DNA from: Clostridiaceae bacterium
GTDB lineage: Bacteria; Bacillota; Clostridia; Saccharofermentanales; UBA5734
DNA: 44,798 nucleotides
NCBI GenBank assembly: GCA_012520975.1
Contig: JAAYNF010000154.1
Span: forward strand, 1 to 44,798
Direction of reading: 5' to 3'
The translations under genes were made by a program, and so were the position numbers. The first letter of the stretch is position 1, and each line of letters starts with the position of its first letter. Of the stretch, positions 2,986 through 40,260 are shown in pieces. Below the pieces are notes generated by a model. It ran no database searches and was not told the origin of the DNA. It worked only from the letters and a program-made list of their open reading frames with translations.

Positions 2986-3008
2986 GCTGTGCCTCCTGTT
3001 CAAAAATC

Positions 3009-3045: not shown

Positions 3046-4167
3046 TCAGTCGATAAATATGCCTCTGCGGGGTAGTTCGTGAATGCTCTTCCAGCCTTCG
3101 CTGAGGGGTTCCTTCAGGCAGGGAGCGATCTCTTCTGCAGGGCGGTAGGAGAACTTCGAAGGATCCGGTACCGTGCCCGCGGGATATTTCTCAATGATAT
3201 CCTCGCACATGAGTGTCAGGTACTCGCAGATGGCTGCTATCGCACGCTTGACGCGACGCGGATGCGCCCGAGTGGGCTTGCCCACCACGCCTTCGGGTGT
3301 GCCAAAACGCTCGATCCAAGCATTGCCCTCCATCTCCTGCCAACGGTTGGGACGATGGAAAGAATCCACGGAACCATCGAAGAAACCATCTTGCAAAAAG
3401 CCGAAGTTGACGGGTGTCGCGTCGACACAGGCGTCCATGTCCATCATCTCGGGGAACATCAGCAGTCCAACGCTTGTTTCGGATTCATCTGCGTGCACAA
3501 ACGGCGTCGACACAAAGTCGGGACGTTCGTCACCAAGCGGATAGAAGAACTCTCGGACCGCTCTGTGCCATTCCACCACGCACGCGAAACCGGGAAGCTG
3601 GTATCTCTTAAAAAATTCCTGGACGGCGCTTTCGAGCATCCAGTCCTGTCCATGGTTGTTGACGAGGATGATTTTGCGGAATCCATCATCCCACAGACCG
3701 GCCATAACGGCGGTGAGTGTATCAACAATGGCGGTCTCGGATATCATGACGGTACCCGGCATACCAACATGGTGGTAGGGGTGCCCGCCGTAGTTGAGCG
3801 GCGGGAACGCGAGGTTGACCTCACGTCCGAGCTTTGCGGTCTTTCTTCTAACCGCCTCGCAGATGAGCTGCGCCATGAAGGTGTCAAGACCGGACGGGCT
3901 ATGCGCGCCGTGGTTTTCCGTGCATCCGATGGGTACCAGTACAATGTCGTTCTTTCTGCGCTTTTCAATCAGTTTCGAACGCGGCGTATTCTGGATATAG
4001 GTTCCTGCTACGCCCATCTCAAGGGGCGAACCAATGCCGTAATCATCGAGGATCTCTTGGATTTCCTCTTCAGAGGCGTCCCAGATTCGTTTCTTCATAC
4101 GGCCGACCTTGCTGTCCTCAAAGAATATGTTGGGATATTCGGTGGTAAGATAGTTTACATATGACAT
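3046..4167 (-). CDS. iolN: 3-Dehydro-scyllo-inosose hydrolase-like (creatininase family)
   Basis: Creatininase-superfamily amidohydrolase fold, 373 residues, longer than plain creatininases (about 250) because of an N-terminal extension of roughly 70 residues. Metal-site motifs: PIGCTENHGAHSPSGLD (about 78-94), GGHPYHH (about 127-133) and NNHGQDW (about 170-176). In T. maritima the creatininase-like IolN opens the ring of 3-dehydro-scyllo-inosose to give 5-dehydro-L-gluconate. Position between IolM-like and IolO-like genes supports the same role. GGAGGA precedes the ATG; the upstream gene ends 15 bases away, so the two are probably co-translated. A generic creatininase is unlikely given the neighbours, but the reaction is inferred. 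Confidence 0.78.
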   Translation of the reverse strand: MSYVNYLTTEYPNIFFEDSKVGRMKKRIWDASEEEIQEILDDYGIGSPLEMGVAGTYIQNTPRSKLIEKRRKNDIVLVPIGCTENHGAHSPSGLDTFMAQLICEAVRRKTAKLGREVNLAFPPLNYGGHPYHHVGMPGTVMISETAIVDTLTAVMAGLWDDGFRKIILVNNHGQDWMLESAVQEFFKRYQLPGFACVVEWHRAVREFFYPLGDERPDFVSTPFVHADESETSVGLLMFPEMMDMDACVDATPVNFGFLQDGFFDGSVDSFHRPNRWQEMEGNAWIERFGTPEGVVGKPTRAHPRRVKRAIAAICEYLTLMCEDIIEKYPAGTVPDPSKFSYRPAEEIAPCLKEPLSEGWKSIHELPRRGIFID

Positions 4168-4181
4168 AATTTTTCCTCCAT

Positions 4182-5384
4182 TCAGTCGTCCATGACGCAG
4201 GTGATTTTCATGTTGGTACGATCGGTCTGCAGTGCAAGAATGTGTTCGGGAACCTCATCCAGCGTGATTTTCTTGGTAATAATGGGCAGCATATCCATAC
4301 CCGCAGCCATGCTGGCGATGACGCGCGGGAACGTGCCGTGGCCGCTATGACCCTGTGCGCCGACGATGCGTGCTCTTCTGACCTGCAGAACCTCACCGGT
4401 TACGGGCATTTTCGCCTCGGCGCGCGCGACAACGACAACGGTGGCGTTGAGGGTCCTGCCCTCCCAGATGCACTGCTCGATTCCCGGATATACCACCGTC
4501 GGCAGACCCGTTGCCTCGAGATACAGGCTCGCCCCCATGCCATCCGTCAGGCGGAGCACCTCTGATGTAAAATCGACCTTGGTCGGATCGATCACGTAAT
4601 CCGCCCCCATCTTCATGGCAAGAGCCGCTCGTTCGGGTTGCGGTTCAGATACGATGACTGTTGCGCCGCCCATGGTCTTTAATTCTCTGCACGCCGCAAG
4701 GCCAACAGGACCCGCGCCGCAGATGACGGCGTTATCTCCGGGACGAACTCCGCCGCCGCGCTCGATAACAGCGTTGTAGGCGACGCAGCAGGGCTCTACC
4801 AAAGAACCTGCAAGGAAGATGTCGCTTTCGTCCTTATATATCTTGCGTAACGGCTCAAGGCTCCATAGGCAGCGATCCGGCAGCACGATGTATTCGCAGA
4901 ACGCGCCATTCACATTGAAACCAATCTCATCCAGTCTTTCACAGTGGTTGGGCCAACCGTCCGCGCAGGGCTTGCAGCTGCCGCACCACAGCATCTCCTC
5001 GGCACAGACAAGCTCACCGCCCTTGAACGGCTTGTTGGTTACCTTGTCGATGGCGCCGGGACCGCCCTTGACAACCACACCGCTGAATTCGTGACCAAGG
5101 ATGCAAGGAAAGCCGGTCAGACCGGGATAATAGATGTAGCCGTCTTCCTGGGCCTGTGCCATATGAACGTCACTACCGCAGATGCCGCAGGCCTTTACCT
5201 TGATAAGCACCTGACCGGGGCCCGGTTCCGGGATGTCGTGCTCGTCGATGGAAATATAAGGATCTCTCCACACCTGACTGCCGAGGTATGTTTGAACCTT
5301 GTCGATGTCCTTGCTGCCAAGCTTGAAGCCGGGCTTCGGATCCCACGTGGCGTGAAGTGTTACACCTCTCATCTTTTGTGCCAT
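4182..5384 (-). CDS. iolM: scyllo-Inosose 3-dehydrogenase-like zinc alcohol dehydrogenase
   Basis: Medium-chain zinc dehydrogenase, 400 residues. The start at 5384 is preceded by GAGAGG; the longer frame upstream has no such site. The N-terminus, WDPKPGFKLGSKDID and VKACGICGSDVHMAQ, closely matches my memory of T. maritima IolM (TM0412), which oxidises scyllo-inosose to 3-dehydro-scyllo-inosose. Catalytic zinc ligands are Cys (CGICGSD) and His/Glu (LGHEFSG). The structural zinc lobe is CGSCKPCADGWPNHC. The NAD site is CGAGPVGLAA. The long loop between the GHE motif and the cysteine lobe and the tail motif GAQGHSGHGTFPRVI also match that subfamily. Third gene of the minus operon. A paralogue lies at 38132-39316. 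Confidence 0.85.
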   Translation of the reverse strand: MAQKMRGVTLHATWDPKPGFKLGSKDIDKVQTYLGSQVWRDPYISIDEHDIPEPGPGQVLIKVKACGICGSDVHMAQAQEDGYIYYPGLTGFPCILGHEFSGVVVKGGPGAIDKVTNKPFKGGELVCAEEMLWCGSCKPCADGWPNHCERLDEIGFNVNGAFCEYIVLPDRCLWSLEPLRKIYKDESDIFLAGSLVEPCCVAYNAVIERGGGVRPGDNAVICGAGPVGLAACRELKTMGGATVIVSEPQPERAALAMKMGADYVIDPTKVDFTSEVLRLTDGMGASLYLEATGLPTVVYPGIEQCIWEGRTLNATVVVVARAEAKMPVTGEVLQVRRARIVGAQGHSGHGTFPRVIASMAAGMDMLPIITKKITLDEVPEHILALQTDRTNMKITCVMDD

Positions 5385-5444
5385 AAATAATACCTCTCTT
5401 TTTCTATTGTTGAGTCCCTCTTCAGGGGATATCAGAACCAAAGC

Positions 5445-6215
5445 TTATACAGTTCTTAGCCTGTCGAGATTGATTTCGGGTGCGCGCGGGAACAGCTCTT
5501 TCAGTTCGGAAAAGTCGAAAATAATTCCGTCCGGGCGGTTCTCATCGGTGATAACTTCCTTCTTGAGTTTCTCAAGTTTCTCGGGCGTGGTGTAGAGAAT
5601 AAACATCCCAAAGCCTGCTAGGCGTGCGCCCTCGACATCGCGCTTGAGATTGTCGCCGATGTAAACGCAGCGTTCGGGCGCAACCGCAAGCAGATCACTA
5701 GCCCTTTTGTAAATCTCGGGGTCGGGTTTGCGGATGCCCTCGACACACGATAACAAAACAACGTCGAAATACTGTTCCAGATTATCCTCCCGCAACCAGT
5801 CAGGAATTTCTATGGAGGTGACGAGATTACTGATGATGCCGAGCTTGTAGCCGTTCTCGTACAAATCCCGAATGCTTTGCACACCGTTTTCCGCTACGAC
5901 ACGCCTGCCGTCCTTGTTGCGAAACTCCACCGTCAGCTCCACGCAGTTTTTTAAAATCAAATCCCGCGGATATTCGGGCGTGAGCCACTTTGTCCACAGC
6001 TCGCTCTCCGGCGCTTCGCGCATGGTTTCAAAACACCATTTGCGGTATCCTTCGTAGCGATAATCCAAAAACTTGCAGAATGCATCGGGGTCGCCTGTTT
6101 CACCGCAAAGTTCGGCAATACGCTGCCTTGCCGTCCGCTCAAACGCGGCGTCGCGCTCAACCAGCCGTAACGTGCCACCAAGATCATAAAATATAGCGTC
6201 AAATTGTGTGCTCAT
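5445..6215 (-). CDS. HAD-superfamily hydrolase (paralogue 1)
   Basis: HAD hydrolase with an alpha-helical cap inserted after motif I, 256 residues. Motif I is YDLGGT: the nucleophile Asp is present, but the residue two places on, usually the Asp acid/base of phosphatases, is Gly. Motif II is IISNL, motif III KPDPEIY, motif IV GDNLKRDV. The cap carries ELWTKWLTPEYP and DGRRVV, also seen in the copies at 10108 and 10884. One of five related HADs in the window. It lies between another HAD and the iolM-like gene in the LacI-controlled operon. It may dephosphorylate an intermediate or an imported phosphorylated compound; substrate unknown. Confidence 0.8.
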   Translation of the reverse strand: MSTQFDAIFYDLGGTLRLVERDAAFERTARQRIAELCGETGDPDAFCKFLDYRYEGYRKWCFETMREAPESELWTKWLTPEYPRDLILKNCVELTVEFRNKDGRRVVAENGVQSIRDLYENGYKLGIISNLVTSIEIPDWLREDNLEQYFDVVLLSCVEGIRKPDPEIYKRASDLLAVAPERCVYIGDNLKRDVEGARLAGFGMFILYTTPEKLEKLKKEVITDENRPDGIIFDFSELKELFPRAPEINLDRLRTV

Positions 6216-6229
6216 GTCGTATCTCCTAA

Positions 6230-6979
6230 CTATATTATCTTATCGATAATGGGAATAATTTCAAGCAGATCGGTTATTTTGTAATCCGGTTCCAAACCGC
6301 TGCAGAGAAAACCTTCGTCTCTGTGATATATCGCTGGATTGTCGATCTGAATAGAGAGTCCGATGCCGGCATTTTTACAGCCCAAGACATCTCGCGACAG
6401 CGTATCTCCTACATAGCAAAACGCATCCTTTTCTATTTCCAGCTTGTCTATCGCCAGCCGAAAAATTTCGTGGGAGGGCTTTCGGAATCCGACTTCGCTG
6501 GACAGAATGATCATTTCCATCGCGTCGTATATCCCGCATTCCCTCAAAAAATATGGCGAAAACGTGGTTGAAATGGTATTGCTGATGATTCCAAGGCGTA
6601 GATTGCGCTTTTTCAGCGCATCCATGACCTCTTTTACATGAGGACGTGCCGTATTGACAACGCGCATATCGTTATACAGAAAACTCAGTTCTTCGCTTAT
6701 TGGGGCAAGCTTGTCTCTGCCAACGTCAAAATCCGCAAGATAGAACTCATCCCAAATCCTATCGGCGGGCCACTCCCACAATGTCTGTTCAACGTGATGC
6801 TTGTACCGCTCCGCGTTTTGATGGAGCAGGGAGGAAAACACGTCATCGTCTACAGGGATACGGATGTCTTGCTTTTCCAAACGCTTCCGGAGCTCTTTGA
6901 TAAAGCGCGCGCGCACCTGTTCATCGCTTGTAACAGTGTGAAGAGTACCGCCTATATCAAAAAAAACCGCCTGAATCAT
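6230..6979 (-). CDS. HAD-superfamily hydrolase (paralogue 2)
   Basis: First gene of the minus-strand inositol operon, 249 residues when started at 6979 (MIQAVFFDIGGT). A longer frame to 7030 would run into the operator and is unlikely. HAD motifs: FDIGGT (nucleophile Asp, Gly at +2), IISNT, RKPSHEIF, GDTLSRDV. The cap has IWDEFYLADF in the position of the ELWTxWLxPDYP segment of its relatives. It most resembles the HAD at 28703 (shared GDTLxRDV, RKPH/S, ISNTxS). Leader of about 70 bases from the predicted transcription start. Substrate unknown; expression with inositol genes suggests a cyclitol or sugar-acid phosphate. Confidence 0.78.
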   Translation of the reverse strand: MIQAVFFDIGGTLHTVTSDEQVRARFIKELRKRLEKQDIRIPVDDDVFSSLLHQNAERYKHHVEQTLWEWPADRIWDEFYLADFDVGRDKLAPISEELSFLYNDMRVVNTARPHVKEVMDALKKRNLRLGIISNTISTTFSPYFLRECGIYDAMEMIILSSEVGFRKPSHEIFRLAIDKLEIEKDAFCYVGDTLSRDVLGCKNAGIGLSIQIDNPAIYHRDEGFLCSGLEPDYKITDLLEIIPIIDKII

Positions 6980-7026
6980 TTTTACCCCAACAGCCTCCAA
7001 TAATGTGTGTTGTATCGGCATACAAT

Positions 7027-7038
7027 GCAAACGTTTGC
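7027..7038. promoter_or_regulatory. LacI-type operator O1
   Basis: Perfect 12-base palindrome GCAAACGTTTGC, 14 bases downstream of the minus-strand -10 box, so over the start of the inositol operon transcript. Identical cores lie at 10072-10083 and 23793-23804. Confidence 0.85.
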
Positions 7039-7255: not shown

Positions 7256-8272
7256 TTGAGACGAGTTACGATAAAAGATATCGCAAAAGAGGCAAACGTC
7301 TCTTACGCCACCGTATCAAGGGCGTTGTCCGGTAGTCCCGAAATTAGCGAGAAAACCCGCGCTCACGTATTGGAAGTCAGCAAACGGATGGGCTACACGA
7401 AAAACTATATCGCCCATGCCATGGTGAAAAAGCGCACAGGATTGATCGGACTTATCGTCGCCAGTGTAAAAAACCCCTTTATGAGTGAACTTGCGTTTCA
7501 TATTGAACAGCATGCCATGCTGAAGGGATATAACCTCATGCTTTGCAATTCCTCCCATGATACGGAGCGTGAGCGACAGGTTTTTGAGGTGCTCATAAGC
7601 AGACAGGTGGATGGTATCATCATCGTTCCCACAAGCGCGGAAACCCACCGCCATCTTGCGCCGTATCTTGAGACAACCCCTACGGTTTTTGTCGGTGAAA
7701 ATCTGAGGGATGCCGCCGTGAGCTATGTGGCCATCGATAACTACCGCGGCACCAGAATCGGCATGGAGTATCTTTATGGGTTGGGACACCGGGACATCCT
7801 TTATTTCGGCAGGCGCAAAGGTTCTGTGACACATCAGCTGCGCGCGAACGGCTACATAGACGCATGCGAGGAGGCGGGGATCGAGCCTATGATTTGCCAC
7901 AGCAGCTACACGTCAAGCTCCATACAAAACGGCTATCAACTTGCAAAGACCCTGCTTGCAAAGCCCATCGACTACACGGCGGTTTTTGCGGCGACGGACT
8001 CAATGGCGCTTGGCTTTATGAAGGCGACCAGCGAGCTGAAAATCAGAATACCCAAGGATCTTTCCCTGATGGGCTTCGACAACATCCAGTATGCAGAACT
8101 ACCGCGCATTGATCTTACCACCATTGAGCAGCCCCAGCAGGCCATTGCGGCGACCGCCGTAGATACCCTGCTTGAGCGCATAAACAATCCGCAGGCAGGT
8201 TATGCGCACCACGTGTTGTCTCCGAAGCTGATTGAGCGCGGCACCTGCAAACAGCTGAGTGATACAGAATGA
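7256..8272 (+). CDS. LacI-family transcriptional regulator (regulon repressor)
   Basis: 338 residues. TTG start at 7256, 8 bases after AGGAG; the nearby ATG at 7251 hits a stop at once. The N-terminal helix-turn-helix is VTIKDIAKEANVSYATVSRALSG-type (residues about 4-26), followed by the hinge segment GYTKNYIAHAMVKKRTG, then a periplasmic-binding-protein-like effector domain (IGLIVASVKNPF, VDGIIIVPTSAE, LMGFDNIQYAEL, TTIEQPQQAIA). It sits between two target promoters and its own promoter carries a weaker site, so it is the likely binder of GCAAACGTTTGC. The effector may be an inositol-derived intermediate. A distant alternative is that it answers only to the HAD/PHP genes. Confidence 0.88.
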   Translation: MRRVTIKDIAKEANVSYATVSRALSGSPEISEKTRAHVLEVSKRMGYTKNYIAHAMVKKRTGLIGLIVASVKNPFMSELAFHIEQHAMLKGYNLMLCNSSHDTERERQVFEVLISRQVDGIIIVPTSAETHRHLAPYLETTPTVFVGENLRDAAVSYVAIDNYRGTRIGMEYLYGLGHRDILYFGRRKGSVTHQLRANGYIDACEEAGIEPMICHSSYTSSSIQNGYQLAKTLLAKPIDYTAVFAATDSMALGFMKATSELKIRIPKDLSLMGFDNIQYAELPRIDLTTIEQPQQAIAATAVDTLLERINNPQAGYAHHVLSPKLIERGTCKQLSDTE

Positions 8273-8289
8273 CAGCAAACGGAGGCGCC

Positions 8290-9000
8290 ATGTTTCGCTA
8301 CGACACGCATGTTCATACCAAGGAAACGAGCAGGTGTGGGCACTTAACCGCCGAACAGATCGTAAAAAAATACATAGAGCTGGGATATGACGGCATCTGC
8401 ATCACCGACCATCTGCATCAGGAATATATCGATACCCTCGACACCAAACAATGGTATTCAATCGCGGATGCCTATCTTGCCGGGTACCGCACCGCCAAAG
8501 AGTGGGGTGACAGGCTGGGGCTGTCCGTCATTTTGGGTGTGGAGATCCGCTTTCCGGAGAGCGAGCGGGATTATCTTTTGTATGGTGTGGACGAGATGTT
8601 TCTCTACCGCCATCCTTTTCTGTACGATACGACACCACAGGCGTTTTATGGCACGTTCTGCGATGAGGTGCTGATTATACAGGCGCATCCCTTTCGAAAT
8701 TATGAATTCATCCATGAGGGTTGCATCCACGGATTGGAGATCGTAAACGGCAATCCGCGTCATGCGAATCGCAACGACAGGGCGCTGCAATACGCACTGG
8801 ACAACCCGGATTTGTTTCGCCTCTGTGGATCGGACACCCATCGAATCGGAGATGAGGGACAAAACGCTCTGTTGTCGTGCGCGCCGATCCACGATTCTTT
8901 TGTGCTGCGCGACACCATTCTGCGCAGAGATTACTCCCTCTGGTCCAAGAATGAGAAAGATATCATTCTTGCCGGTTGCAAAAATATCGGAAAATGCTGA
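8290..9000 (+). CDS. PHP-domain phosphoesterase-like protein
   Basis: Polymerase/histidinol-phosphatase (PHP) TIM-like barrel, 236 residues. Start taken at 8290 because GGAGG lies just upstream; an in-frame ATG at 8269 overlaps the lacI stop and would add 7 residues. Metal motifs: DTHVHTKETSRCGH at the N-terminus, ITDHLH (about 41-46), GVEIRF (about 82-87), QAHPFR (about 133-138) and GSDTHRIG near the end. These are the usual ligands for two or three metals. It forms a translational unit with lacI and with the metallo-beta-lactamase gene that overlaps its end. Phosphatase or phosphodiesterase activity is likely; the substrate is unknown. Confidence 0.8.
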   Translation: MFRYDTHVHTKETSRCGHLTAEQIVKKYIELGYDGICITDHLHQEYIDTLDTKQWYSIADAYLAGYRTAKEWGDRLGLSVILGVEIRFPESERDYLLYGVDEMFLYRHPFLYDTTPQAFYGTFCDEVLIIQAHPFRNYEFIHEGCIHGLEIVNGNPRHANRNDRALQYALDNPDLFRLCGSDTHRIGDEGQNALLSCAPIHDSFVLRDTILRRDYSLWSKNEKDIILAGCKNIGKC

Positions 9001-9944
9001 AAATCCATTTTATCAATGTTGCCGATGGGGACGCCATTCTGCTGGAGCATTCCTATGAGGAGAAAACGCGCTATATTCTGATTGATACCGGAAGGAGCGT
9101 ATTACAAGACGATCCCTTGTCAAAGCGCATGCTTGCCGTCGACTATCTGAAACGGGCGGATGTCATGCGATTGGAGGGGTTGATTATCACGCATTTGCAT
9201 CTCGATCACAGCGCGGGGCTGGAAAACATTCTGAATGCCGGCATTGCTGTTGACAACATTTACGCATCGTTCTTTCCGCCCGCGGACGCGGATGATATTA
9301 TGGCGGATTCCGCCTGTGTCAAGACGATCAGGAATCTGATTGGAAGTCTGAATATCTATCATCAAAACTGTAAGAGGCTGCGTCAGAGCGGATGCGCATT
9401 TGTCGAGGTTACCGATACAAGGGACTTTTTCTTCGAGGATTTGCATATCAAGATTATATGCACCGATCCTCTTGCGAACAAGGCGCAAAACAGTATTTTT
9501 TCCGATTTGTTTTATCAAAATATTGCGGTTGATGCCGATGACGTTTATGCTGCCGCAGCGGCTCGCAACCCCAATTCTTTGCGCGTCCGGATAACGTACC
9601 GGGGTAAAATAATCGAACTTGCGGGAGACAGCTACGGGTCGCTGTGGGAGAACGAGAAGTTGGACAGGTGCGATATCTTCAAGCTGCCTCACCATGGAGA
9701 CCAGAAATCGATTACCCCTACCATCGCGGAAAAACTGTATCCCAGGTACGCCGTCATTTCCTGCCAGAGAGCGTATATGCCCGAAAAAGACAGACCTTCT
9801 CTGCAAATGGCGCAGATGCTCCTTAGCAGAGGATGCAAGGTCTATTTTACCGACAGCTTCGGTGCGCCGTGGAATGATGCGGTTTGCGATTGGGATGCGT
9901 GTGTCTTTACAATCACCGATAACGGCGACATTGTTGCGCCATAG
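8994..9944 (+). CDS. Metallo-beta-lactamase-fold hydrolase (ComEC C-domain-like)
   Basis: 316 residues. The ATG at 8994 overlaps the PHP gene's stop; the upstream TTG at 8976 has no clear ribosome-binding site. It opens with LKIHFINVADGDAILLE, typical of stand-alone relatives of the ComEC/Rec2 beta-lactamase domain, then IDTG, the metal motif THLHLDHSAG (about 66-75), a middle ELAGDSYGSLW and KLPHHGDQKS. It has no membrane segments, unlike ComEC. Proteins of this type cleave phosphoester or nucleic-acid bonds, but no specific substrate can be read here. Linked to the PHP gene, so both may act on the same phosphorylated compound. Confidence 0.75.
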   Translation: MLKIHFINVADGDAILLEHSYEEKTRYILIDTGRSVLQDDPLSKRMLAVDYLKRADVMRLEGLIITHLHLDHSAGLENILNAGIAVDNIYASFFPPADADDIMADSACVKTIRNLIGSLNIYHQNCKRLRQSGCAFVEVTDTRDFFFEDLHIKIICTDPLANKAQNSIFSDLFYQNIAVDADDVYAAAAARNPNSLRVRITYRGKIIELAGDSYGSLWENEKLDRCDIFKLPHHGDQKSITPTIAEKLYPRYAVISCQRAYMPEKDRPSLQMAQMLLSRGCKVYFTDSFGAPWNDAVCDWDACVFTITDNGDIVAP

Positions 9945-10107: not shown

Positions 10108-10839
10108 ATGATTTCCCAAATTGATACGATCTTCTTTGATGTCGGCGCGACACTACGCTATGTTGTGGAGGATGAGCCCTTCGCCAAAGAAGCCGAACGC
10201 CAACTGATCAAACTGGTACAATCCACCGAGGAGCACGACGTGTTCTTTGAACGATTGACGGCCAATTGGCGGGCGTATCGAAACCGTGCGAAAACCATCC
10301 TGCTTGATTGCTCCGAAATGGAATTGTGGACGCAGTACCTTCTACCCGATTATCCTGTGGAGATCATTGCGCCCAATTCCGCGAAACTGACACGTTTATG
10401 GCGCGACCATGACGGACGCAGAGTGCCGCATGACGGGGTTTTGACCGTTGTTCCCGAACTGCACCGCCGCGGCTACAAACTCGGCATCATCGCAAACACC
10501 GTGACCGAGACCGAAATCCCGGATTGGCTGTGCGAAGATGGTATTGTGGGGTACTTTACCACGGTGATTTTGTCCTCCAAAGTGCGTTTGAGAAAACCGG
10601 ATCCGGCTATCTATGAGCTTGCCGCGCGCTGTGTTGGGTCGCCGCCGGAAAACTGCGTGTATATCGGTGATAATCCCATGCGGGATGTCGAAGGGGCGTA
10701 TGACGCCGGCTTTAGCGCCATGATTCTTTTTGAGGACGCGGGTGCCGCGGACAGAGAAGGAGAGCTTCCGGCTGCTGAGCCGACACACAGGATTCGTGCC
10801 ATCCCGGAGCTGTTGGATATTTTTTCCGATCGTGGCTGA
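10108..10839 (+). CDS. HAD-superfamily hydrolase (paralogue 3)
   Basis: 243 residues from ATG 10108, preceded by GGAGGTGGAGGAG. A much longer open frame extends upstream over the promoter and operator and is not used. Motif I is FDVGAT (nucleophile Asp, Gly at +2). Motif II is IIANT, with Ala where Ser/Thr is usual. Motif III KPDPAIY and motif IV GDNPMRDV are intact. Cap residues ELWTQYLLPDYP and HDGRRVPHDGV match paralogue 1. First gene of the LacI-regulated plus-strand series. Substrate unknown; the weak motif II may mean altered activity. Confidence 0.78.
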   Translation: MISQIDTIFFDVGATLRYVVEDEPFAKEAERQLIKLVQSTEEHDVFFERLTANWRAYRNRAKTILLDCSEMELWTQYLLPDYPVEIIAPNSAKLTRLWRDHDGRRVPHDGVLTVVPELHRRGYKLGIIANTVTETEIPDWLCEDGIVGYFTTVILSSKVRLRKPDPAIYELAARCVGSPPENCVYIGDNPMRDVEGAYDAGFSAMILFEDAGAADREGELPAAEPTHRIRAIPELLDIFSDRG

Positions 10840-10883
10840 AGCAACGTTTTAATGAAGATTGAGATGCCTTCTTGGAGGATGTC

Positions 10884-11627
10884 ATGAAAAAACCGGAAAA
10901 CATCACCGCGATATTTCTTGATTTGGGTGATACATTTCGCGTCATTCGCGAAGACGAAGCATACAAAACCAACGCAAAGAAGGAAATTGCGCGGTTGCTT
11001 GGTGTTGAAACCGACGCCGCGCGCTTCTTTGATGAAGTCATTGAGGTCAGATATCAGGAATATCGCAAGTGGGCGCTGGCAACCATGTGCGAGGCGCCGG
11101 AAAACCTGCTGTGGACATGGTGGCTTGCCTTCGATTTTCCGAAGGATTCAGTGAAAAAAAATGCCATGGCGCTCACCTATCAGTACAGACAAACAAAAGG
11201 AGAGCGCGTCGTGGTGGATGGCGGTGTGGAAACCGTCAAGGAACTGCAGCGTCGTGGCTACAAGCTCGGCATAGTGTCGGATTTGGTAGGCACGCAAGAG
11301 GTGGATGAGTGGTTGGACCGCGATCAACTGCGTCCGTACTTTTGTACGGTGCAGCAATCATCGGTCACTCTGATCCGAAAGCCGCATCCGGCAATATTCT
11401 TCTACGCCGTTCGAGAGGCGGGCGTAGATCCTGGGAACTGCTGCTTTGTGGGCGACAATCTCGACAGAGACATCGCCGGCGCAAAGCAGGCCGGCTTTGG
11501 GTACACGATTGGGGTTAGATACGAGGGGAAGCGCAACACAAAACTGGAGATTACCGAGGAAAATCGTCCGGATGCCTTCATCACGCATTTTTCTGAGCTT
11601 CTCGGCTACTTTCCGACGATTGATTGA
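10884..11627 (+). CDS. HAD-superfamily hydrolase (paralogue 4)
   Basis: 247 residues. ATG at 10884 follows GGAGG at 10874-10878. Motif I is LDLGDT (Gly at +2). Motif II is IVSDL, motif III RKPHPAIF, motif IV GDNLDRDI. The cap shows NLLWTWWLAFDFP and GERVVVDGGV, so it is closest to paralogues 1 and 3. It lies 44 bases after paralogue 3, suggesting tandem duplication followed by divergence, and 9 bases before the phosphoglycerate-mutase-like gene. Substrate unknown. Confidence 0.78.
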   Translation: MKKPENITAIFLDLGDTFRVIREDEAYKTNAKKEIARLLGVETDAARFFDEVIEVRYQEYRKWALATMCEAPENLLWTWWLAFDFPKDSVKKNAMALTYQYRQTKGERVVVDGGVETVKELQRRGYKLGIVSDLVGTQEVDEWLDRDQLRPYFCTVQQSSVTLIRKPHPAIFFYAVREAGVDPGNCCFVGDNLDRDIAGAKQAGFGYTIGVRYEGKRNTKLEITEENRPDAFITHFSELLGYFPTID

Positions 11628-11636
11628 GGAGGGAAC

Positions 11637-13202
11637 ATGAGCAAGGGTTTTCACGGCGGTGACGCTCTGGCAAGAGCGGTTGAGAGTGCATACCGCAACA
11701 ATCAGGTGGATTATTCAATGCCGCCCATGGCGCTGGTGGACGAGAACGGCAACGCCGTCGGTAAGATACAGGACGGAGATACCGTCATCTTTTGCTGTAG
11801 GCGCGGCGAGCGTGAAATCGAGTTGACCGAAGCGTTTACCGATCCGAATTTCACGGGCTTTGCGCGGAAGCATATGAAAGATCTTCTTTTTGCCATCCTG
11901 ACACTGTATCATGAAAAGTTCAAAGACCTGCCCATTGCGTTTGCGCCGGAGTGCGTGGATACGCCACTTGCTCAGGTGCTTTCGGCGCATGGCATTCGAC
12001 AGTTTCATTGCGCGGAATCCGAAAAGTTCGCGCACGTCACCCATTTCTTCAACGGCGGCCACAACGCGCCGTTCCCCGGAGAGGATGATGTTTCCATTCC
12101 CTCGCCCAAAGGCGTGGCATTTGACCAGGTGCCCGAGCTTCATCTTCCCAAGGTTTGCGAAAGAGTCAAGCAGGCGATCAATGACCAGTACGGATTTATT
12201 GTCGCGAATTTTGCAAACGGTGATGTTATCGGGCATACATCAAGCACAGAAGCCAAGTTGACCGCGGTAAACGCTGTTTCGGAATACGTGCACGAGGTTA
12301 CGGCACATGCCAAGACCAAGGGCTATACGATTCTGATTACCGCGGACCACGGAAACATCGAAACACTGCGTGACAGCCAGGGCAAGCCCCATGTGGCTCA
12401 TACAACCAGTCAAGTGCCGTTTCTCGTCGTTGATCCGAGGCACGAAAGCATCGTGCTCCGAGACGGTAAACTTGCCGATGTCAGCCCGACGATCTTGAAA
12501 ATACTCGGCATTGAGAAACCCGCCTTGATGCAGGGAGAATCCTTGATAACCGAGGGAGGAGTCCATAACAATCGCGTCATGCTGTTGATTTTGGACGGCT
12601 GGGGCATTGGAAGCGGCGATGAGAATGACGCGCTGTTTGTCGCGGATACGGAAAAATGGGACGCGTTGCTTACGCGGTATCCCAACTGCCGCTTGGATGC
12701 GTCCGGAGAGGCGGTTGGACTTCAAGCGGGAAAGGCCGGCAATTCGGAGGCGGGGCACACAAATCTTGGCGCGGGCAGAGTGGTGCTTCAGGATGACGTG
12801 CGCATCGATAACGCCATCGCAGACGGAACTTTCGAAAAAAACCCCGTGATTTTATCGTGCATCGAGCGCGCGAAAGAAAACGGCAGACCGCTGCACCTGA
12901 TCGCGTTGCTTACAAAAAGGTCGAGCCACGGTAGCATTGATTACCCCATTGCCATCACAAGGATGGCGGAGGGTGTCAAGGATGTGTTTATCCACATCAT
13001 ATTCGACGGACGTTCCACGGATCCGGGCAGCGCGCCGGCGCTGCTTCGTGAACTGGATTCCACGCTTTCGAGCATCGGCAGGGGAGTTATCGTTGACGGG
13101 GTAGGCAGGGGCATTGCGCTGGACAGGGACTTGAATTATGACAAGATAAAGCGCGCGTACTGCTCCATGACGGTCGGCACGGAAGGGAATTACAAACGAT
13201 AG
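11637..13202 (+). CDS. Circularly permuted cofactor-independent phosphoglycerate mutase-like enzyme
   Basis: 521 residues, about the length of GpmI (around 510), but with the two halves swapped. Residues 9-303 correspond to the C-terminal part of GpmI: ALARAVESAY, DGDTVIFCCRRGER, AESEKFAHVTHFFNGG with Lys130, NFANGDVIGH with Asp196/His200, ITADHGN with Asp237/His238, His255, QGESL. Residues 312-518 correspond to the N-terminal part: VMLLILDGWGIG with Asp320, GNSEAGHTNLGAGR with Ser370, HIIFDGRSTDP, GRGIALDRD. Metal ligands and the phosphoserine residue are kept. Substrate-site changes include GRD to GRS (Ser460) and loss of one His in the GGVHSH segment. GAGGAG precedes the ATG. It may be a mutase or phosphatase on a sugar-acid phosphate; 3-phosphoglycerate is the default, but the substrate is uncertain. 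Confidence 0.8.
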   Translation: MSKGFHGGDALARAVESAYRNNQVDYSMPPMALVDENGNAVGKIQDGDTVIFCCRRGEREIELTEAFTDPNFTGFARKHMKDLLFAILTLYHEKFKDLPIAFAPECVDTPLAQVLSAHGIRQFHCAESEKFAHVTHFFNGGHNAPFPGEDDVSIPSPKGVAFDQVPELHLPKVCERVKQAINDQYGFIVANFANGDVIGHTSSTEAKLTAVNAVSEYVHEVTAHAKTKGYTILITADHGNIETLRDSQGKPHVAHTTSQVPFLVVDPRHESIVLRDGKLADVSPTILKILGIEKPALMQGESLITEGGVHNNRVMLLILDGWGIGSGDENDALFVADTEKWDALLTRYPNCRLDASGEAVGLQAGKAGNSEAGHTNLGAGRVVLQDDVRIDNAIADGTFEKNPVILSCIERAKENGRPLHLIALLTKRSSHGSIDYPIAITRMAEGVKDVFIHIIFDGRSTDPGSAPALLRELDSTLSSIGRGVIVDGVGRGIALDRDLNYDKIKRAYCSMTVGTEGNYKR

Positions 13203-13219: not shown

Positions 13220-13966
13220 ATGATTTTCGCTTCAAGTCTTTTTGATCCGATGAATCTATCCAATATTCAGCTGAATGCAGGGCAAATTGTGACGCGTCTG
13301 CTTGTCGCCATGCTGATAGGTGCGGTCATCGGAACCGAGCGTGAATTTACCCATAGACCTGCGGGGATTCGCACATATACGCTTGTTTCGTTGGGCTCCT
13401 GTGCGGTCATGATAACCAGCCAGTTAATTTTTCTGCAATACAGCCAGCACGGCGCAATGCCGGATCCGGGCAGACTCAGCGCTCAGGTGATTGCGGGTGT
13501 CGGCTTTCTTGGTGCGGGTACGATCCTTCGCGAGGGTGTAGCGGTCAAGGGGCTTACGACCGCGGCAGGTCTGTGGGCGGTGGCGTGCCTCGGCATCGCA
13601 ATCGGCGCGGGTTACTACATAGTCGGCGGAGTGGGTGCGGTGTGTTTGCTTGTGACACTGGTGGTCCTTGAATGGGTGCAACGCCGGATTATGCACAGAA
13701 GAAACGAAATCTATTCGTTTCGGGTGCTTTGTGATGATCAAGTGAAGGCACTGGAGAGCATATATGCGCTCTCCGCAAAGAACAACGGCAGGCTGAGAGA
13801 TATTCAGCTCGCAAGGGACGAGGAAAGTAGCAGCAAGAACGTGGCAATCCTGTTCCGCATCGACTTTTCCGGCAGACGTGCCATTGGGAATTCGGTTAAC
13901 TTCTTTAAGGATTTGAGCATCGATAAAGAAGTGGCATCTGTGAAGATGGAACGACTCAATATGTGA
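13220..13966 (+). CDS. MgtC/SapB-family membrane protein
   Basis: 248 residues; AGGAGG is 6 bases before ATG. Hydrophobic N-terminal half with about four to five membrane segments and the family signatures LLVAMLIGAVIGTERE, RPAGIRTYTLVSLGS, GVGFLGAGTILREG and GLTTAAGLWAVACLGIAIG. A soluble C-terminal domain of about 90 residues follows from about residue 155. Family members affect magnesium or phosphate homeostasis and ATP synthase in some bacteria. Its place among phosphatase and kinase genes, after a metal-dependent mutase-like enzyme, could reflect Mg/phosphate balance; this is inference. Its stop overlaps the possible GTG start of the next gene. Confidence 0.82.
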   Translation: MIFASSLFDPMNLSNIQLNAGQIVTRLLVAMLIGAVIGTEREFTHRPAGIRTYTLVSLGSCAVMITSQLIFLQYSQHGAMPDPGRLSAQVIAGVGFLGAGTILREGVAVKGLTTAAGLWAVACLGIAIGAGYYIVGGVGAVCLLVTLVVLEWVQRRIMHRRNEIYSFRVLCDDQVKALESIYALSAKNNGRLRDIQLARDEESSSKNVAILFRIDFSGRRAIGNSVNFFKDLSIDKEVASVKMERLNM

Positions 13967-13974
13967 GTGAGGCC

Positions 13975-14856
13975 ATGAACGCTTACGATGTAATGATAAT
14001 CGGTCCCGCGACCAGGGACATCAATATTGATTACACCGGCGTGGAGGATCGGCGTGTAGGCGGCGCCGTGTCTTTCTGCGCGGCGTCCGCCGCAGCAACG
14101 GGCGCCAAGGTATTTGCGGCGGTGAAGATTCATCCGGACGATGCCGACATTATGGATGAGATTCCGCTATCGGATTGCGACAAGATCATCCTTCCGGCAG
14201 TACGCACCACGCTGATGCGCAACGAGTACTTTACGCAGGATAGGGAGCGGAGACAGTCGAATTGCCTTGCGCAATCCGATACCGTGCAATTGTCCGAAAT
14301 ACCGAATCATTCCTGCAAGATTTATCACCTTGCAGGGCTGCTGTACGGGGATTTTTCCGAAACGCTGATTCGCGGTCTTGCAGATAGAGGCAAGCTGTCT
14401 GCCGATGCGCAGGGTTTTTTGCGGCACAATGTGGACGGAAACATGGAGTTCTTCGATTGGAAGGACAAGGAGAAGCTGCTGCCCTTTTTCTCATTTTTGA
14501 AGGTGGACGCATTGGAGGCGGAAATACTGACAGGTGAGGCGGATCGTGTTGCGGCGGCCAAGAAACTGCACGCAATGGGCGCGCATGAAATTCTGCTTTC
14601 ACACAACAAGGAAATGCTGATATTTGACGGGAATGCCGTTTATACCTGCCCCGTCAAGGCGCGCAACCTTCGCGGCAGGACAGGGCGAGGAGACACATTC
14701 ACGGGTGCTTATCTTGCGATGCGGCAAATGGGTGACGATATCGAGACCGCCCTGAAATATGCGACAGCATGCGTATCCCTCAAAATGGAATCCGTAGGGG
14801 TGTTTCGCGGAACTCGTGAGGATGTGGAGGCGTATTATGCCGAATTCTATCATTGA
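13975..14856 (+). CDS. PfkB-family carbohydrate kinase (possible cyclitol kinase)
   Basis: 293 residues from ATG 13975; an in-frame GTG at 13963 overlapping the MgtC stop is possible. It is a short ribokinase-fold protein without a lid-rich N-terminus: GPATRDINIDYTG, RRVGGAVSFCA and the C-terminal PfkB signature RGRTGRGDTFTGAYLA, containing the catalytic Asp (GRGDT, where GAGDT is usual). A central LSADAQGFLR with acidic residues resembles the equivalent segment of inositol 3-kinases of the PfkB family. Given the inositol regulon, inositol kinase activity is a reasonable guess; a sugar or nucleoside kinase cannot be excluded. Its end overlaps the next gene by 20 bases. Confidence 0.7.
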   Translation: MNAYDVMIIGPATRDINIDYTGVEDRRVGGAVSFCAASAAATGAKVFAAVKIHPDDADIMDEIPLSDCDKIILPAVRTTLMRNEYFTQDRERRQSNCLAQSDTVQLSEIPNHSCKIYHLAGLLYGDFSETLIRGLADRGKLSADAQGFLRHNVDGNMEFFDWKDKEKLLPFFSFLKVDALEAEILTGEADRVAAAKKLHAMGAHEILLSHNKEMLIFDGNAVYTCPVKARNLRGRTGRGDTFTGAYLAMRQMGDDIETALKYATACVSLKMESVGVFRGTREDVEAYYAEFYH

Positions 14857-15727
14857 GGGGGATGGCTATCTTATCGGAATAAACCTGCCCGGCACAAACC
14901 TTGCGGGAGTTGAGAACGCATTGCGCACTATCTCAGAAGACGGCTTTCAAGCGTGCGAAATCAATCTTTCAACCCTTCCCTTTATTCTTTACGGCGACAT
15001 AAAAACCGAGGTTGTAAGCTTTACCAAGGCCATCATGGAAAAGTACGATCTTGTTTATACCGCGCATGCAAGCTACGGGCTGGACCTTCGCAATGCCTCC
15101 ACACTGCCGTTGCATCAAAAGGTGCTCAACGCTTCTGTTATGGTGTGCAGCATGCTGGGCATCGACAGGCTGAACGTCCATTTTGAGGAACATTCTCCCG
15201 TTGCGGAGCAGGAGCAACTCTTCTTTGAAAGCATCATCCGCGCCGCCGACCTCGGGCAGGATCTTGGCGTTGCCGTAAACGTGGAGAACATTGAGGTGGA
15301 GGATGCGCGGCTCGCGCTTGACGCTGTGAAACGCGTCAACCATCCCAACTGCAAAATGACTTTGGATCTGGGGCATCTGTACATCTCCGCAAACTATTTC
15401 GGTTATGATTATTTCAAAACGCTTCAGGATTGCCTGCCGTACCTTGGGCACCTGCATATCAACGACAACTACGGCGTTTTTGAGCCGATGCGCATGACCA
15501 ACAAGCCTCTTTATGATACGCTTGACAAGGGGAGCCGTTTCACATTCGGTTTGGGGGATATTCACATCCCGCCATTTTGGGGTTCTGTGCCGATTGCGAA
15601 ATCCTTGAAAATAATTCGCGACAGCGGGTACCGCGGCATTTGGCTGTGTGAATACTACAGCGACAGATTCTCGCCGTTCAATCATCAGGTGTATACCGAC
15701 GTGCTAAGCTGTCTGCGCAACGAATAA
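14837..15727 (+). CDS. Sugar phosphate isomerase/epimerase-type TIM-barrel protein
   Basis: 296 residues from ATG 14837 (GGAGG 6 bases upstream), overlapping the kinase gene. AP-endonuclease-2/xylose-isomerase-like barrel: VYTAHASYGLDLRN, LNVHFEEHS, NVENIEVED with a metal-ligand Glu, MTLDLGHL, GHLHINDN and FGLGDIHIPPFWG. The protein at 34386-35282 shares nearly all these blocks, so the two form one subfamily, each tied to one of the two ABC importer systems. Probable aldose/ketose or keto-acid isomerase or epimerase; no closer assignment is possible from sequence alone. Confidence 0.75.
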   Translation: MPNSIIEGDGYLIGINLPGTNLAGVENALRTISEDGFQACEINLSTLPFILYGDIKTEVVSFTKAIMEKYDLVYTAHASYGLDLRNASTLPLHQKVLNASVMVCSMLGIDRLNVHFEEHSPVAEQEQLFFESIIRAADLGQDLGVAVNVENIEVEDARLALDAVKRVNHPNCKMTLDLGHLYISANYFGYDYFKTLQDCLPYLGHLHINDNYGVFEPMRMTNKPLYDTLDKGSRFTFGLGDIHIPPFWGSVPIAKSLKIIRDSGYRGIWLCEYYSDRFSPFNHQVYTDVLSCLRNE

Positions 15728-18342: not shown

Positions 18343-18377
18343 GATTATTTAAAAGATGATTAAAGGGGATGGACAAC

Positions 18378-19835
18378 ATGAAACAGGCTGATATTGGTTT
18401 GATCGGGCTTGCCGTTATGGGCGAGAATCTCGCGATGAACATGGAATCTAAGGGCTTTACCGTGGCGGTGTATAATCGCACCGTAGAGAAGGTGGATAAC
18501 TTTGTCAAAGGCAGAGCGGCGGGCAAGAACATCATTGGCTGCCGTACATTAGAGGATTTACAGGCGAGTCTCTCGGTTCCCCGAAAGGTGATGCTGATGG
18601 TTAAGGCGGGCAATCCCGTGGATGAGTATATTGAAAAGTTGCTTGCCGTCTTGGAGCCCGGCGATATCATCATCGATGGCGGAAACAGCCATTTTCCTGA
18701 TACCGCAAGGCGCGCCGCGTATGTGGAAAGCAAGGGGCTGCTGTTCATCGGTACCGGCGTTTCGGGTGGCGAGGAAGGCGCGCTGAAAGGTCCCGCTATG
18801 ATGCCCGGCGGCTCAAAGGCGGCATGGGAATACGTCAAGCCCATCTTCCAGAGCATCTGCGCAAAGGTAGGGCGCCACGGTGATATTCCCTGTTGTGATT
18901 GGGTCGGAGAAGGCGGCGCGGGACACTTTGTCAAGATGGTGCACAACGGCATCGAATATGGCGATATGCAGCTGATATGCGAGGCGTATCATCTGATGCG
19001 CGATGGTTTAGGATTCTCGACAGAAGAGATGCACCAAGTCTTCGCGGATTGGAACGAGGGCGAACTGGATAGTTATCTGATTGAGATTACGCGCGATATT
19101 TTAGGCTATGTGGATGCAAACGGCGAGCGGACCGTGGAGAAGATTTTGGACACCGCGGGACAAAAGGGCACGGGAAAATGGACGGCGATTACTGCGCTTG
19201 ACGAGGGAGTTGCCTTGACGCTTATTGCCGAAGCGGTGTTCGCGCGCTTTCTGTCCTCCCAAAAAGACGCGCGCGTGGAGGCGGCAAAGAAATACCCTAA
19301 AGAGATTCCATCGTTTGAGGGCGACAAAAAAGCGTTTGTGGAGAACCTTAAAAAGGCGGTATACGCCTCCAAAATTATCAGCTACGCACAAGGCTATGCC
19401 CTGATGCGCGAAGCGGCAAAGACCAACGGTTGGAATCTCAACTACGGCGGCATCGCCATGATGTGGCGCGGCGGCTGTATCATCCGTTCACGTTTTTTGG
19501 ACAAGATTTTTGATGCATTCGAAAAGAACTCCGAACTATCCAATTTGCTGATGGACGATTACTTCGCCTCCGTGATAAACGATTGCGCGGCATCGTGGCG
19601 CGAGATTGTGTCTTACGCAGCAAAGATCGGCATTCCCATGCCCGCCATCTCCTCCGCGCTCAACTATTTTGACGGCTACACCACAGCACGTCTTCCGGCA
19701 AATCTTTTGCAGGCGCAGCGCGATTACTTTGGCGCGCATACTTATGAGCGCATCGATGCGCCGCGGGGGCAATTTTTCCACACCAACTGGACGGGCGAAG
19801 GTGGCGATACCACCTCCGCAGCTTATCTCGCATAA
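18378..19835 (+). CDS. gnd: 6-Phosphogluconate dehydrogenase, decarboxylating
   Basis: 485 residues, full length. The start at 18378 sits 8-9 bases from AGGGGAT; an ATG at 18369 is too close to it. It oxidatively decarboxylates 6-phosphogluconate to ribulose 5-phosphate. Rossmann motif GLAVMGENLAMNM at the N-terminus and VYNRT at the end of beta-2, consistent with NADP use. Also DGGNSHFPDT, the substrate-binding GTGVSGGEEGALKGPAMMPGG-type block, and the catalytic KMVHNGIEYGDMQ with its Lys/Asn. Usually a pentose-phosphate gene standing alone or with gluconate genes. Here it lies inside the uronate/inositol series, between a KdgK-like kinase and a fructuronate reductase-like SDR, which suggests the pathway ends in 6-phosphogluconate. 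Confidence 0.93.
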   Translation: MKQADIGLIGLAVMGENLAMNMESKGFTVAVYNRTVEKVDNFVKGRAAGKNIIGCRTLEDLQASLSVPRKVMLMVKAGNPVDEYIEKLLAVLEPGDIIIDGGNSHFPDTARRAAYVESKGLLFIGTGVSGGEEGALKGPAMMPGGSKAAWEYVKPIFQSICAKVGRHGDIPCCDWVGEGGAGHFVKMVHNGIEYGDMQLICEAYHLMRDGLGFSTEEMHQVFADWNEGELDSYLIEITRDILGYVDANGERTVEKILDTAGQKGTGKWTAITALDEGVALTLIAEAVFARFLSSQKDARVEAAKKYPKEIPSFEGDKKAFVENLKKAVYASKIISYAQGYALMREAAKTNGWNLNYGGIAMMWRGGCIIRSRFLDKIFDAFEKNSELSNLLMDDYFASVINDCAASWREIVSYAAKIGIPMPAISSALNYFDGYTTARLPANLLQAQRDYFGAHTYERIDAPRGQFFHTNWTGEGGDTTSAAYLA

Positions 19836-19848
19836 GGAGGAGAGCGCT

Positions 19849-20697
19849 ATGAAACTACCCATACAAACGGATTTAGGCGGCAAGGTAGCTGTGGTGACTG
19901 GCGCAGGCGGTGTGCTCTGCGGGATGTTCGCAAAAGCTCTCGCGGCAAGCGGCGCAAAAGTCGCGCTGCTGGATTTGAACCTTGATGCCGCCCGGAAAAT
20001 CGCGGATGTCATCACGGAGGAGGGTGGCACGGCAAAGGAATATCTATGCAACGTGCTTGACCGCGCGAGCATGGAAGCCTGTCATGAAGCGGTGTTTTCC
20101 GATTTTGGCGCCTGCGACATCCTGATCAACGGCGCGGGCGGCAACAATCCGCGTGCCTCTACGGATAAGGAGTACTACGAATCGGGGGATTTGGACGCAG
20201 GTATCAAGACATTCTTTGATTTGGACAAGGGCGGCGTGGAGTTTGTGTTTAATCTGAACTTTATCGGTACGCTGCTGCCCACGCAAATCTTCGCCAAAGA
20301 TATGCTGGGAAAGACGGGCTGCAATATATTGAACATCTCTTCCATGAACGCGTACACACCTCTGACAAAGATCCCCGCATATTCCGGCGCGAAGGCGGCG
20401 ATTTCCAATTTTACACAGTGGCTCGCGGTGCACTTTTCCAAGGCAGGCATCCGCGTCAACGCCATTGCGCCGGGGTTCTTCTCTACCAATCAGAACAAAG
20501 CGTTGCTTTGGAATGAGGACGGAACTCCCACCGCGCGTACCGGCAAAATCCTCGCCGCCACCCCGATGGGCAGGTTTGGCGAGGCGGAGGAGCTCATCGG
20601 CGGACTGTTGTTCTTGCTTAACAACGAGGCTGCATCGTTCATTACGGGTGTCGTGTTGCCCATCGACGGCGGATTTTCCGCATATTCGGGGGTGTAA
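19849..20697 (+). CDS. SDR oxidoreductase, probable fructuronate reductase (D-mannonate oxidoreductase)
   Basis: 282 residues from ATG 19849 with AAGGAGGAGAG upstream. Short-chain dehydrogenase: VTGAGGVLCGMF (about 16-27), LDLN at the end of beta-2, NGAGGNNP, catalytic Ser in NISSMNAYTP, YSGAK Tyr/Lys pair, and a C-terminal LPIDGGFSAYSGV. The long insert after NNP (TDKEYYE...FFDLDKGGVEFV) and the ending match the UxuB/YjmF-type SDRs of Firmicutes and Thermotoga uronate clusters. These reduce D-fructuronate to D-mannonate with NAD(P)H. This fits directly after UxaE in the proposed route. A 5-keto-gluconate reductase is a less likely alternative. Confidence 0.8.
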   Translation: MKLPIQTDLGGKVAVVTGAGGVLCGMFAKALAASGAKVALLDLNLDAARKIADVITEEGGTAKEYLCNVLDRASMEACHEAVFSDFGACDILINGAGGNNPRASTDKEYYESGDLDAGIKTFFDLDKGGVEFVFNLNFIGTLLPTQIFAKDMLGKTGCNILNISSMNAYTPLTKIPAYSGAKAAISNFTQWLAVHFSKAGIRVNAIAPGFFSTNQNKALLWNEDGTPTARTGKILAATPMGRFGEAEELIGGLLFLLNNEAASFITGVVLPIDGGFSAYSGV

Positions 20698-23505: not shown

Positions 23506-23577
23506 ATACACCACCCCCTCCCGATTTTGCAATGCGGACGGCGCGGTATTTCTCATGTACGCGCCGCTAATAGACGA

Positions 23578-23606
23578 ATTATAAAGCAGTGCCATGGGCT
23601 TGTCAA
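23578..23606 (-). promoter_or_regulatory. uxaE promoter
   Basis: On the minus strand: TTGACA at 23606-23601, 17-base spacer, TATAAT at 23583-23578. Consensus sigma-A promoter. Confidence 0.85.
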
Positions 23607-23804: not shown

Positions 23805-23829
23805 GACACAAAGAGAAGAGGTGTGGTCA

Positions 23830-34302: not shown

Positions 34303-34320
34303 AGCACAAGGAGTGCGTGA

Positions 34321-34360
34321 TTGACCTGAGGCAAATGCCATGAGCAATGCCTCAGGTCAA
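34321..34360 (+). terminator. attenuating hairpin after the second binding-protein gene
   Basis: Perfect 13-bp stem TTGACCTGAGGCA/TGCCTCAGGTCAA with a 14-base loop, then TTTATT. Probable partial terminator that sets binding protein above permease expression. Confidence 0.7.
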
Positions 34361-34385
34361 TTTATTGAAGATGGAGAATTAAGAT

Positions 34386-35282: not shown

Positions 35283-35286
35283 TACT

Positions 35287-37205: not shown

Positions 37206-37219
37206 GAAGGTGGAATAAT

Positions 37220-38074: not shown

Positions 38075-38131
38075 TAAAAACAGAAGCAAGAGAAAGGTAA
38101 TTTTAGTAATACAAAGATAGAGAGGACATAG

Positions 38132-39316: not shown

Positions 39317-39413
39317 GATGAAAAAGCAAAAGCAATACGATTAAGGGCAACAGTATGATTATATCTCCGTTGAAAGGGATAAATAGCTTGATAATTATGA
39401 AGGAGAAGGAACA

Positions 39414-40232: not shown

Positions 40233-40260
40233 TACGAGAAAGAGTTGTCGAGGTAAGATT

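Follow-up and report, generated by a model that had tools for sequence, protein, structure and literature searches.

A natural and conserved circular permutation of the cofactor-independent phosphoglycerate mutase fold with a switched pocket

One open reading frame in a contig of 44,798 nucleotides from a Clostridiaceae bacterium (the window, meaning the whole stretch of DNA analyzed) encodes a protein resembling the cofactor-independent phosphoglycerate mutase (iPGM, GpmI), with its two halves in swapped order. The locus raises the question of whether such an arrangement is genuine and, if so, which reaction the protein might catalyze. A first-pass annotation, made from the sequence alone, had proposed a circular permutation of the GpmI halves and had suggested a substrate other than phosphoglycerate.

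Architecture of the permuted protein

The 521-residue frame, which has an ATG start codon preceded by a GAGGAGGG ribosome-binding site, was confirmed to represent a circularly permuted iPGM fold (hereafter pPGM). In phmmer searches of the PDB, two swapped stretches matched the same iPGM chains: residues 313-519 aligned with residues 5-213 of 1ejj (1e-40), and residues 14-305 with residues 219-510 (1e-59). Pfam Metalloenzyme, Pfam iPGM_N and NCBIfam TIGR01307 agree, each matching in two stretches, and the TIGR01307 score (460.9 bits, versus a cut-off of 330.65) is the sum of the two swapped stretches. PF01676 (alkaline-phosphatase superfamily) scored 196.9 bits over two stretches, with the two-metal ligand set intact. 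The co-linear order of GpmI, in which the transferase domain is inserted between N- and C-terminal phosphatase parts, is absent from the protein.

Mapping onto Bst iPGM assigned residues ∼1-104 to the second half of the phosphotransferase domain and residues 385-521 to its first half, while the region between them (approximately 105-384) forms a contiguous phosphatase domain, whose old C- and N-terminal parts are joined by a linker at ∼305-313. The arrangement is thus the reverse of the canonical insertion: the phosphatase domain, interrupted in canonical iPGM, is in one piece, and the phosphotransferase domain is split between the two ends. The first-pass annotation had located the linker (about 8 residues) and the new termini correctly, as well as the motifs QGESL (∼299-303), LDGWGIG (at 319) and GNSEAGH (at 368). 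An AlphaFold (AF2) model built from 17 permuted sequences was confident, including the linker region (mean pLDDT 87.8, pTM 0.79, linker region 84-93). Foldseek searches with this model retrieved iPGMs only, with one half aligned per match, as a permutation requires.

Both halves share about 36-45% identity with GpmI (TIGR01307; 1EJJ), and the two proteins have in common both domains, the two-metal site, the phosphoserine and the cap arginines and lysine. The apgM-type enzymes (aPGM; TIGR00306 / NF003160) belong to the same superfamily, and a member is encoded beside pPGM in 13 loci, but they are not permuted and carry a different cap domain; pPGM scores only 27 bits against their cut-off of 320. 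The phosphonoformyl transferase PhpG (NF038358) is a phosphoglycerate-mutase relative with another substrate, but it lies on the apgM side, which is matched by the neighbor of pPGM, and is not permuted. To our knowledge, circular permutation is rare in nature among the enzymes of central metabolism, and a literature search found no paper on an iPGM in permuted form, nor any on an inositol-phosphate phosphomutase. The present protein represents a natural, conserved permutation whose pocket is switched, and that search turned up no earlier report of it.

Distribution and active-site signature

A search for the same permutation elsewhere, as the first-pass annotation had proposed, detected full-length co-linear homologues in 28 other genomes (54-66% identity, plus one at 41%), which excludes chance. 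When each species was represented by a single genome, 19 further co-linear permuted loci emerged, and broader searches brought the total to 30 loci in 29 genomes of Anaerolineae, Lachnospiraceae and other Clostridia/Clostridiales. The assembly of the window genome is fragmented (176 contigs), which might raise the suspicion of a misassembly or of gpmI copies in tandem taken for a single gene. That explanation retains practically no chance and may be called already refuted, since the permuted loci all agree in where they are cut, in the placement of the linker and in their signature residues, including the two that [Clostridium] asparagiforme DSM 15981 carries on its complete chromosome. Moreover, a canonical-order gpmI occurs separately in the window genome (G000:C72:8007-9575), and pPGM is therefore not one gene mis-split. 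The possibility that pPGM is unique to the window contig was rejected by the same 30 loci; the family is widespread, a point absent from the first reading.

Within the groups sampled, pPGM is uncommon. It was present in 2 of 301 Chloroflexota, in 7 of 251 genomes of one order and in 6 of 299 genomes of the [C.] asparagiforme family, and in the class of the window genome it was confined to that genome among 341. A search for viral occurrence of the permuted protein found none. In a midpoint-rooted tree, 29 non-redundant permuted proteins were separated from 48 canonical proteins with a support of 1.0, the sister group not being nameable. One protein (G087; L104 3205-4830, G087:C318:3229-4773) forms a deep branch, with ∼41-44% identity and the same cut site. 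It carries Gly at position 154, and its gene adjoins a secA-like gene, away from HAD and inositol genes; two TM0415-like kinases are encoded elsewhere in that genome.

In all permuted sequences covering the relevant positions, the metal ligands, phosphoserine, His123, Arg153/185/191/261/264 and Lys336 are kept, as had been noted for the window protein. In addition to its order and gene setting, pPGM differs from GpmI at Asp154 of the DGRD motif, which we take to contact the substrate hydroxyl in iPGM (no confirming paper was found in a literature search). This residue is Asp in 48/48 canonical proteins, while it is Ser in 28/29 permuted ones and Gly in the remaining one, the deep branch. In the window protein the motif reads DGRS (457-460), in line with the earlier reading of GRS for GRD, and the altered GGVHSH segment reads RSSHGS. 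Across the permuted proteins, GGVHS is replaced by KSSHG and FRPDR by RRGER; SSHG and RGERE were found in 29/29 permuted versus 0/48 canonical sequences. In total, 24 positions are fixed differently between the two groups, 14 of which are no more than 3 residues away from a catalytic one (p 3.5e-6 versus all positions). However, among the 85 positions that both groups conserve alike, 38 are equally near to catalytic residues. Part of the enrichment thus mirrors the distribution of conservation itself; measured against all conserved positions, the active site holds no marked excess of diagnostic changes.

Gene setting and inositol metabolism

The features of the window are listed in Table 1. 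The genes of the pPGM run occur in the order LacI, PHP, MBL, HAD, HAD, pPGM, MgtC, PfkB, TIM barrel and MATE.

Table 1. Annotated features of the 44,798-nucleotide window
Feature	Coordinates	Strand	Basis or remark
IolG, inositol 2-dehydrogenase	1119..2132	-	above TIGR04380 cut-off
IolO-like TIM-barrel epimerase	2161..3003	-	closest solved structure TM0416
IolN, 3-dehydro-scyllo-inosose hydrolase	3046..4167	-	above NF041098 cut-off
IolM, scyllo-inosose 3-dehydrogenase	4182..5441	-	above NF041097 cut-off
HAD hydrolase	5445..6215	-	
HAD hydrolase	6230..7030	-	
LacI-family regulator, head of run	7256..8272	+	homologues in 12 other pPGM loci
PHP-domain protein	8269..9000	+	
Metallo-beta-lactamase-fold (MBL) protein	8976..9944	+	
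HAD hydrolase, DVGAT motif, Gly at D+2, upstream in pPGM run	10108..10839	+	
HAD hydrolase, DLGDT motif, 9 bp before pPGM	10872..11627	+	
pPGM (circularly permuted iPGM-like)	11637..13202	+	phmmer, Pfam, alignment, model; domain limits via Bst iPGM numbering
New linker codons, old C-terminus (QGESLI) to old N-terminus (VMLLILDGWG)	12549..12575	+	phmmer boundaries, sequence
MgtC-family membrane protein	13220..13966	+	also near pPGM in L123, L124
Putative TM0415-type pyrophosphate-dependent myo-inositol kinase, PfkB/ribokinase family	13963..14856	+	sequence match, residue signature
Xylose-isomerase-like TIM barrel	14837..15727	+	
6-Phosphogluconate-dehydrogenase (6PGD) family protein	18369..19835	+	
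SDR	19606..20697	+	homologue L033:813-1646 above D-mannonate oxidoreductase cut-off; start overlaps preceding gene, true start probably later
LarA-like nickel-dependent putative hexonate epimerase	20701..21984	+	above NF052594 cut-off
UxaE-family tagaturonate epimerase	22048..23595	-	
Fused ABC permease, closest to 2-aminoethylphosphonate PhnU2 type	23821..25650	+	
ABC transporter ATPase	25690..26808	+	
ABC substrate-binding protein (SBP_bac_8)	26860..28137	+	
HAD hydrolase	28703..29449	+	
H+-translocating pyrophosphatase	29535..31523	+	homologue directly beside pPGM in L125

The window contains a myo-inositol locus of the Thermotoga type, comprising IolG, IolM and IolN homologues above their NCBIfam cut-offs, an IolO-like (TM0416-like) epimerase and a TM0415-like pyrophosphate (PPi) kinase, and thereby resembles the TM0411-TM0416 operon of Thermotoga maritima, for which the pathway intermediates have been named (PMC5931981). 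Beyond the counterparts of that operon, the window encodes pPGM, HADs, an ABC transporter of a different kind, MgtC and an H+-pyrophosphatase (H+-PPase). We know of no phosphoglycerate mutase-like enzyme in the Thermotoga operon. The window set (IolG-IolM-IolN-IolO, UxaE, SDR, hexonate epimerase and 6PGD homologue) could carry myo-inositol to ribulose 5-phosphate, in an order of steps that is partly assumed by analogy with Thermotoga.

The window PfkB kinase is nearest to TM0415 (2e-37), which is itself an inositol kinase dependent on pyrophosphate, the next PfkB match being far weaker (3e-6). It keeps K171, R229, R232, D234 and M266, together with D11, N78, S89, L116, Q141 and R145, while F221 is replaced by Val, such that 8 of 9 diagnostic residues are retained (K171, F221, R229, R232 and M266 of the PPi-kinase signature; D11, N78, Q141 and R145 for the acceptor). 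The three Chloroflexi kinases within the fetched pPGM flanks carry N78L, S89L and L116S, the set reported for homolog No. 49 from Levilinea saccharolytica, for which PPi-dependent inositol kinase activity was demonstrated and whose true acceptor was considered to be other than myo-inositol (PMC5931981). TM0415-like kinases were detected in 25/29 pPGM genomes, versus 1/21 control relatives lacking pPGM; within one order, they occurred in 6 of the 7 genomes with pPGM versus 13 of the other 244 (Fisher 5.5e-7). These counts were not corrected for shared ancestry.

HAD genes of several kinds were present at 24/30 loci. Those read retain the nucleophile Asp, KPDP and GDN, but carry Gly at D+2; across the loci, Gly replaces the second Asp in 30 of 31 HAD motif-I matches. 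The window itself encodes at least five HAD paralogues (5445-7030, 10108-11627, 28703-29449). Homologues of the ABC permease were found at 16 of the 30 loci, of the ATPase at 18 and of LacI at 13, and a phosphonate-type ABC transporter recurs near pPGM. A search of the PDB for the ligand identity of the window's ABC substrate-binding protein gave no match. Thirteen Chloroflexi loci carry an apgM-type enzyme; a uridine-kinase-like protein occurs at 12 loci and RpiR at 9. The uridine-kinase-like protein (L033 7572-8759) and its homologues in 11 other Chloroflexi loci have an unassigned N-terminal part of ∼185 residues.

Inositol genes were evident within the fetched flanks at 9/30 loci, many of the contigs being short. 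In G069, G070 and G058, homologues of IolN, IolM or IolG are encoded upstream of the pPGM run, and IolB and IolD adjoin pPGM in L129. An unexpected set for the family was observed in L127 (9657-14866), where pPGM is followed, in one run, by IolG (12 bp after pPGM), type II GAPDH, PGK and split transketolase genes. The two [Clostridium] asparagiforme copies (L102 9189-10988; L036 6001-7575) sit in differing settings, one with RpiR and, as judged by eye, an apparent tripartite tricarboxylate (TctABC-like) transporter, the other with an Afu/Phn-like ABC system. The occurrence of an H+-pyrophosphatase gene near pPGM in two genomes (window; L125 1-1339) suggests that pyrophosphate matters in this setting.

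Of 19 permuted-enzyme genomes checked, 18 have another phosphoglycerate mutase, in the form of a canonical gpmI, a gpmA or a separate apgM, as does the genome of the window. In one case (G065) the count rests on an apgM not seen adjoining the permuted gene. Since the sole checked genome without a mutase clearly separate from the locus was G062, which is fragmentary, pPGM is probably not the glycolytic phosphoglycerate mutase of its hosts. Searches of the checked genomes for gpmI, gpmA and apgM also led us to reject pPGM as the only such enzyme of its hosts.

Proposed function and competing explanations

The subfamily-wide replacement of Asp154 and the neighboring changes, the second phosphoglycerate mutase and the conserved inositol, inositol phosphate (InsP) and pyrophosphate setting together support the earlier suggestion of another substrate. 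Inositol phosphates were already among the candidates listed then, and the neighboring genes, a setting missed at the time, now name the likely pathway. On inference, pPGM most likely works on InsPs, as a phosphomutase or as some related enzyme. Whether it is specifically a Mn-dependent phosphomutase acting on an inositol phosphate, and not on phosphoglycerate, appears to us evenly balanced; the substrate, the regiochemistry, the direction and the mutase (rather than hydrolase) outcome are all inferred. No direct evidence exists for the substrate or activity of pPGM, including 2PG/3PG interconversion, and no enzyme that shifts phosphate groups on inositol phosphates is known to us.

Canonical iPGM catalyzes a vicinal phosphoryl shift between O2 and O3 of glycerate. 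By analogy, and judging from the conserved residues, the two-metal site of pPGM (D403, H407, H462 and D12, D444, H445, Bst numbering) would activate Ser62, which would accept the phosphoryl group from the substrate, while the cap domain (H123, R153, R185, R191, R261, R264, K336) would grip both phosphate and substrate, and the phosphoryl group would then be returned to a neighboring hydroxyl. The D154S, KSSHG and RRGER changes remodel the glycerate pocket. In the putative pathway, InsP-related compounds would be taken up by the ABC transporter and dephosphorylated by the several HADs; the TM0415-type kinase and H+-PPase would serve pyrophosphate-linked inositol phosphorylation or its reverse, and IolG-IolM-IolN-IolO, UxaE, mannonate oxidoreductase and hexonate epimerase would oxidize myo-inositol towards central metabolism. 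Reversal of the PPi kinase is thermodynamically doubtful. Ins(2)P is known to accumulate in bacterial phytate breakdown (PMC7618129), and a plausible specific role for pPGM would be the conversion of this phosphatase-resistant axial isomer to Ins(1/3)P.

Several observations count against an InsP mutase: inositol genes are present in only 9/30 of the fetched flanks, the deep-branching G087 protein occurs in a different setting, and the GAPDH and PGK genes in L127 fit a true phosphoglycerate mutase. A permuted but true phosphoglycerate mutase, recruited to a sugar/inositol regulon and boosting lower glycolysis, would also account for the score above the TIGR01307 cut-off and for the retention of all metal ligands, phosphoserine and phosphate-binding residues. 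We consider it unlikely, though still to be kept in play, in view of the loss of Asp154 in every permuted protein, the separate gpmA, apgM or gpmI in nearly every checked genome, and the linkage, at nearly all loci, to genes for inositol use, HADs and transport instead of glycolysis. The same loss of Asp154, a residue presumed to handle the acceptor hydroxyl, is central to a phosphatase reading, in which water hydrolyzes the phosphoserine and the inositol phosphate loses its phosphate instead of shifting it. The alkaline-phosphatase superfamily site is kept and the neighbors include many phosphatase-like proteins, but the whole cap (H123, R153, R185, R191, R261, R264), which in iPGM serves re-binding for transfer, is retained, and hydrolysis is already covered by the HADs; simple hydrolysis is rather unlikely.

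The carboxylate-binding arginines of iPGM are also kept, as would be expected if the substrate were not an inositol phosphate but a phosphorylated sugar acid further downstream (a phosphohexonate or phosphoglycerate analogue). The window and Chloroflexi loci such as G069, G070 and G1098 encode homologues of UxaE, mannonate oxidoreductase, hexonate epimerase and 6PGD, which would suit such a substrate, as would the TctC-like tricarboxylate-type transporter seen by eye beside the second copy of Enterocloster asparagiformis ([Clostridium] asparagiforme). However, these genes are missing from most pPGM loci (UxaE is found at only 5/30), in contrast to the PPi-inositol kinase, found in 25/29 genomes, and a sugar-acid substrate seems improbable. 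An inositol phosphate remains the substrate that we favor for pPGM, although the apgM-type enzyme and uridine-kinase-like proteins of the Chloroflexi are left unexplained by this scheme.

In its broadest form, the proposal would make pPGM the founding family of a new activity, an InsP phosphomutase that arose by permutation and re-tooling of a glycolytic mutase and that acts in an intracellular phytate-remnant pathway of gut Lachnospiraceae and Anaerolineae, coupled to pyrophosphate through the PPi-linked inositol kinase and the proton-pumping pyrophosphatase. This we put forward only tentatively, as a possibility with less than even prospects. The permutation itself spans two phyla and coincides with a fixed pocket change, and it provides a clean case in which to ask how a permutation and a new function come about together. 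Because pPGM passes the TIGR01307 cut-off, NCBIfam labels these genes as phosphoglycerate mutase, which would mislead metabolic reconstructions. If the InsP role is true, the loci offer a testable gene set for the use of phytate remnants by gut and rumen anaerobes. Farther along the window (33064-41331), a second ABC sugar transporter, TIM barrels and two Zn-alcohol dehydrogenases are encoded, perhaps for another inositol isomer.
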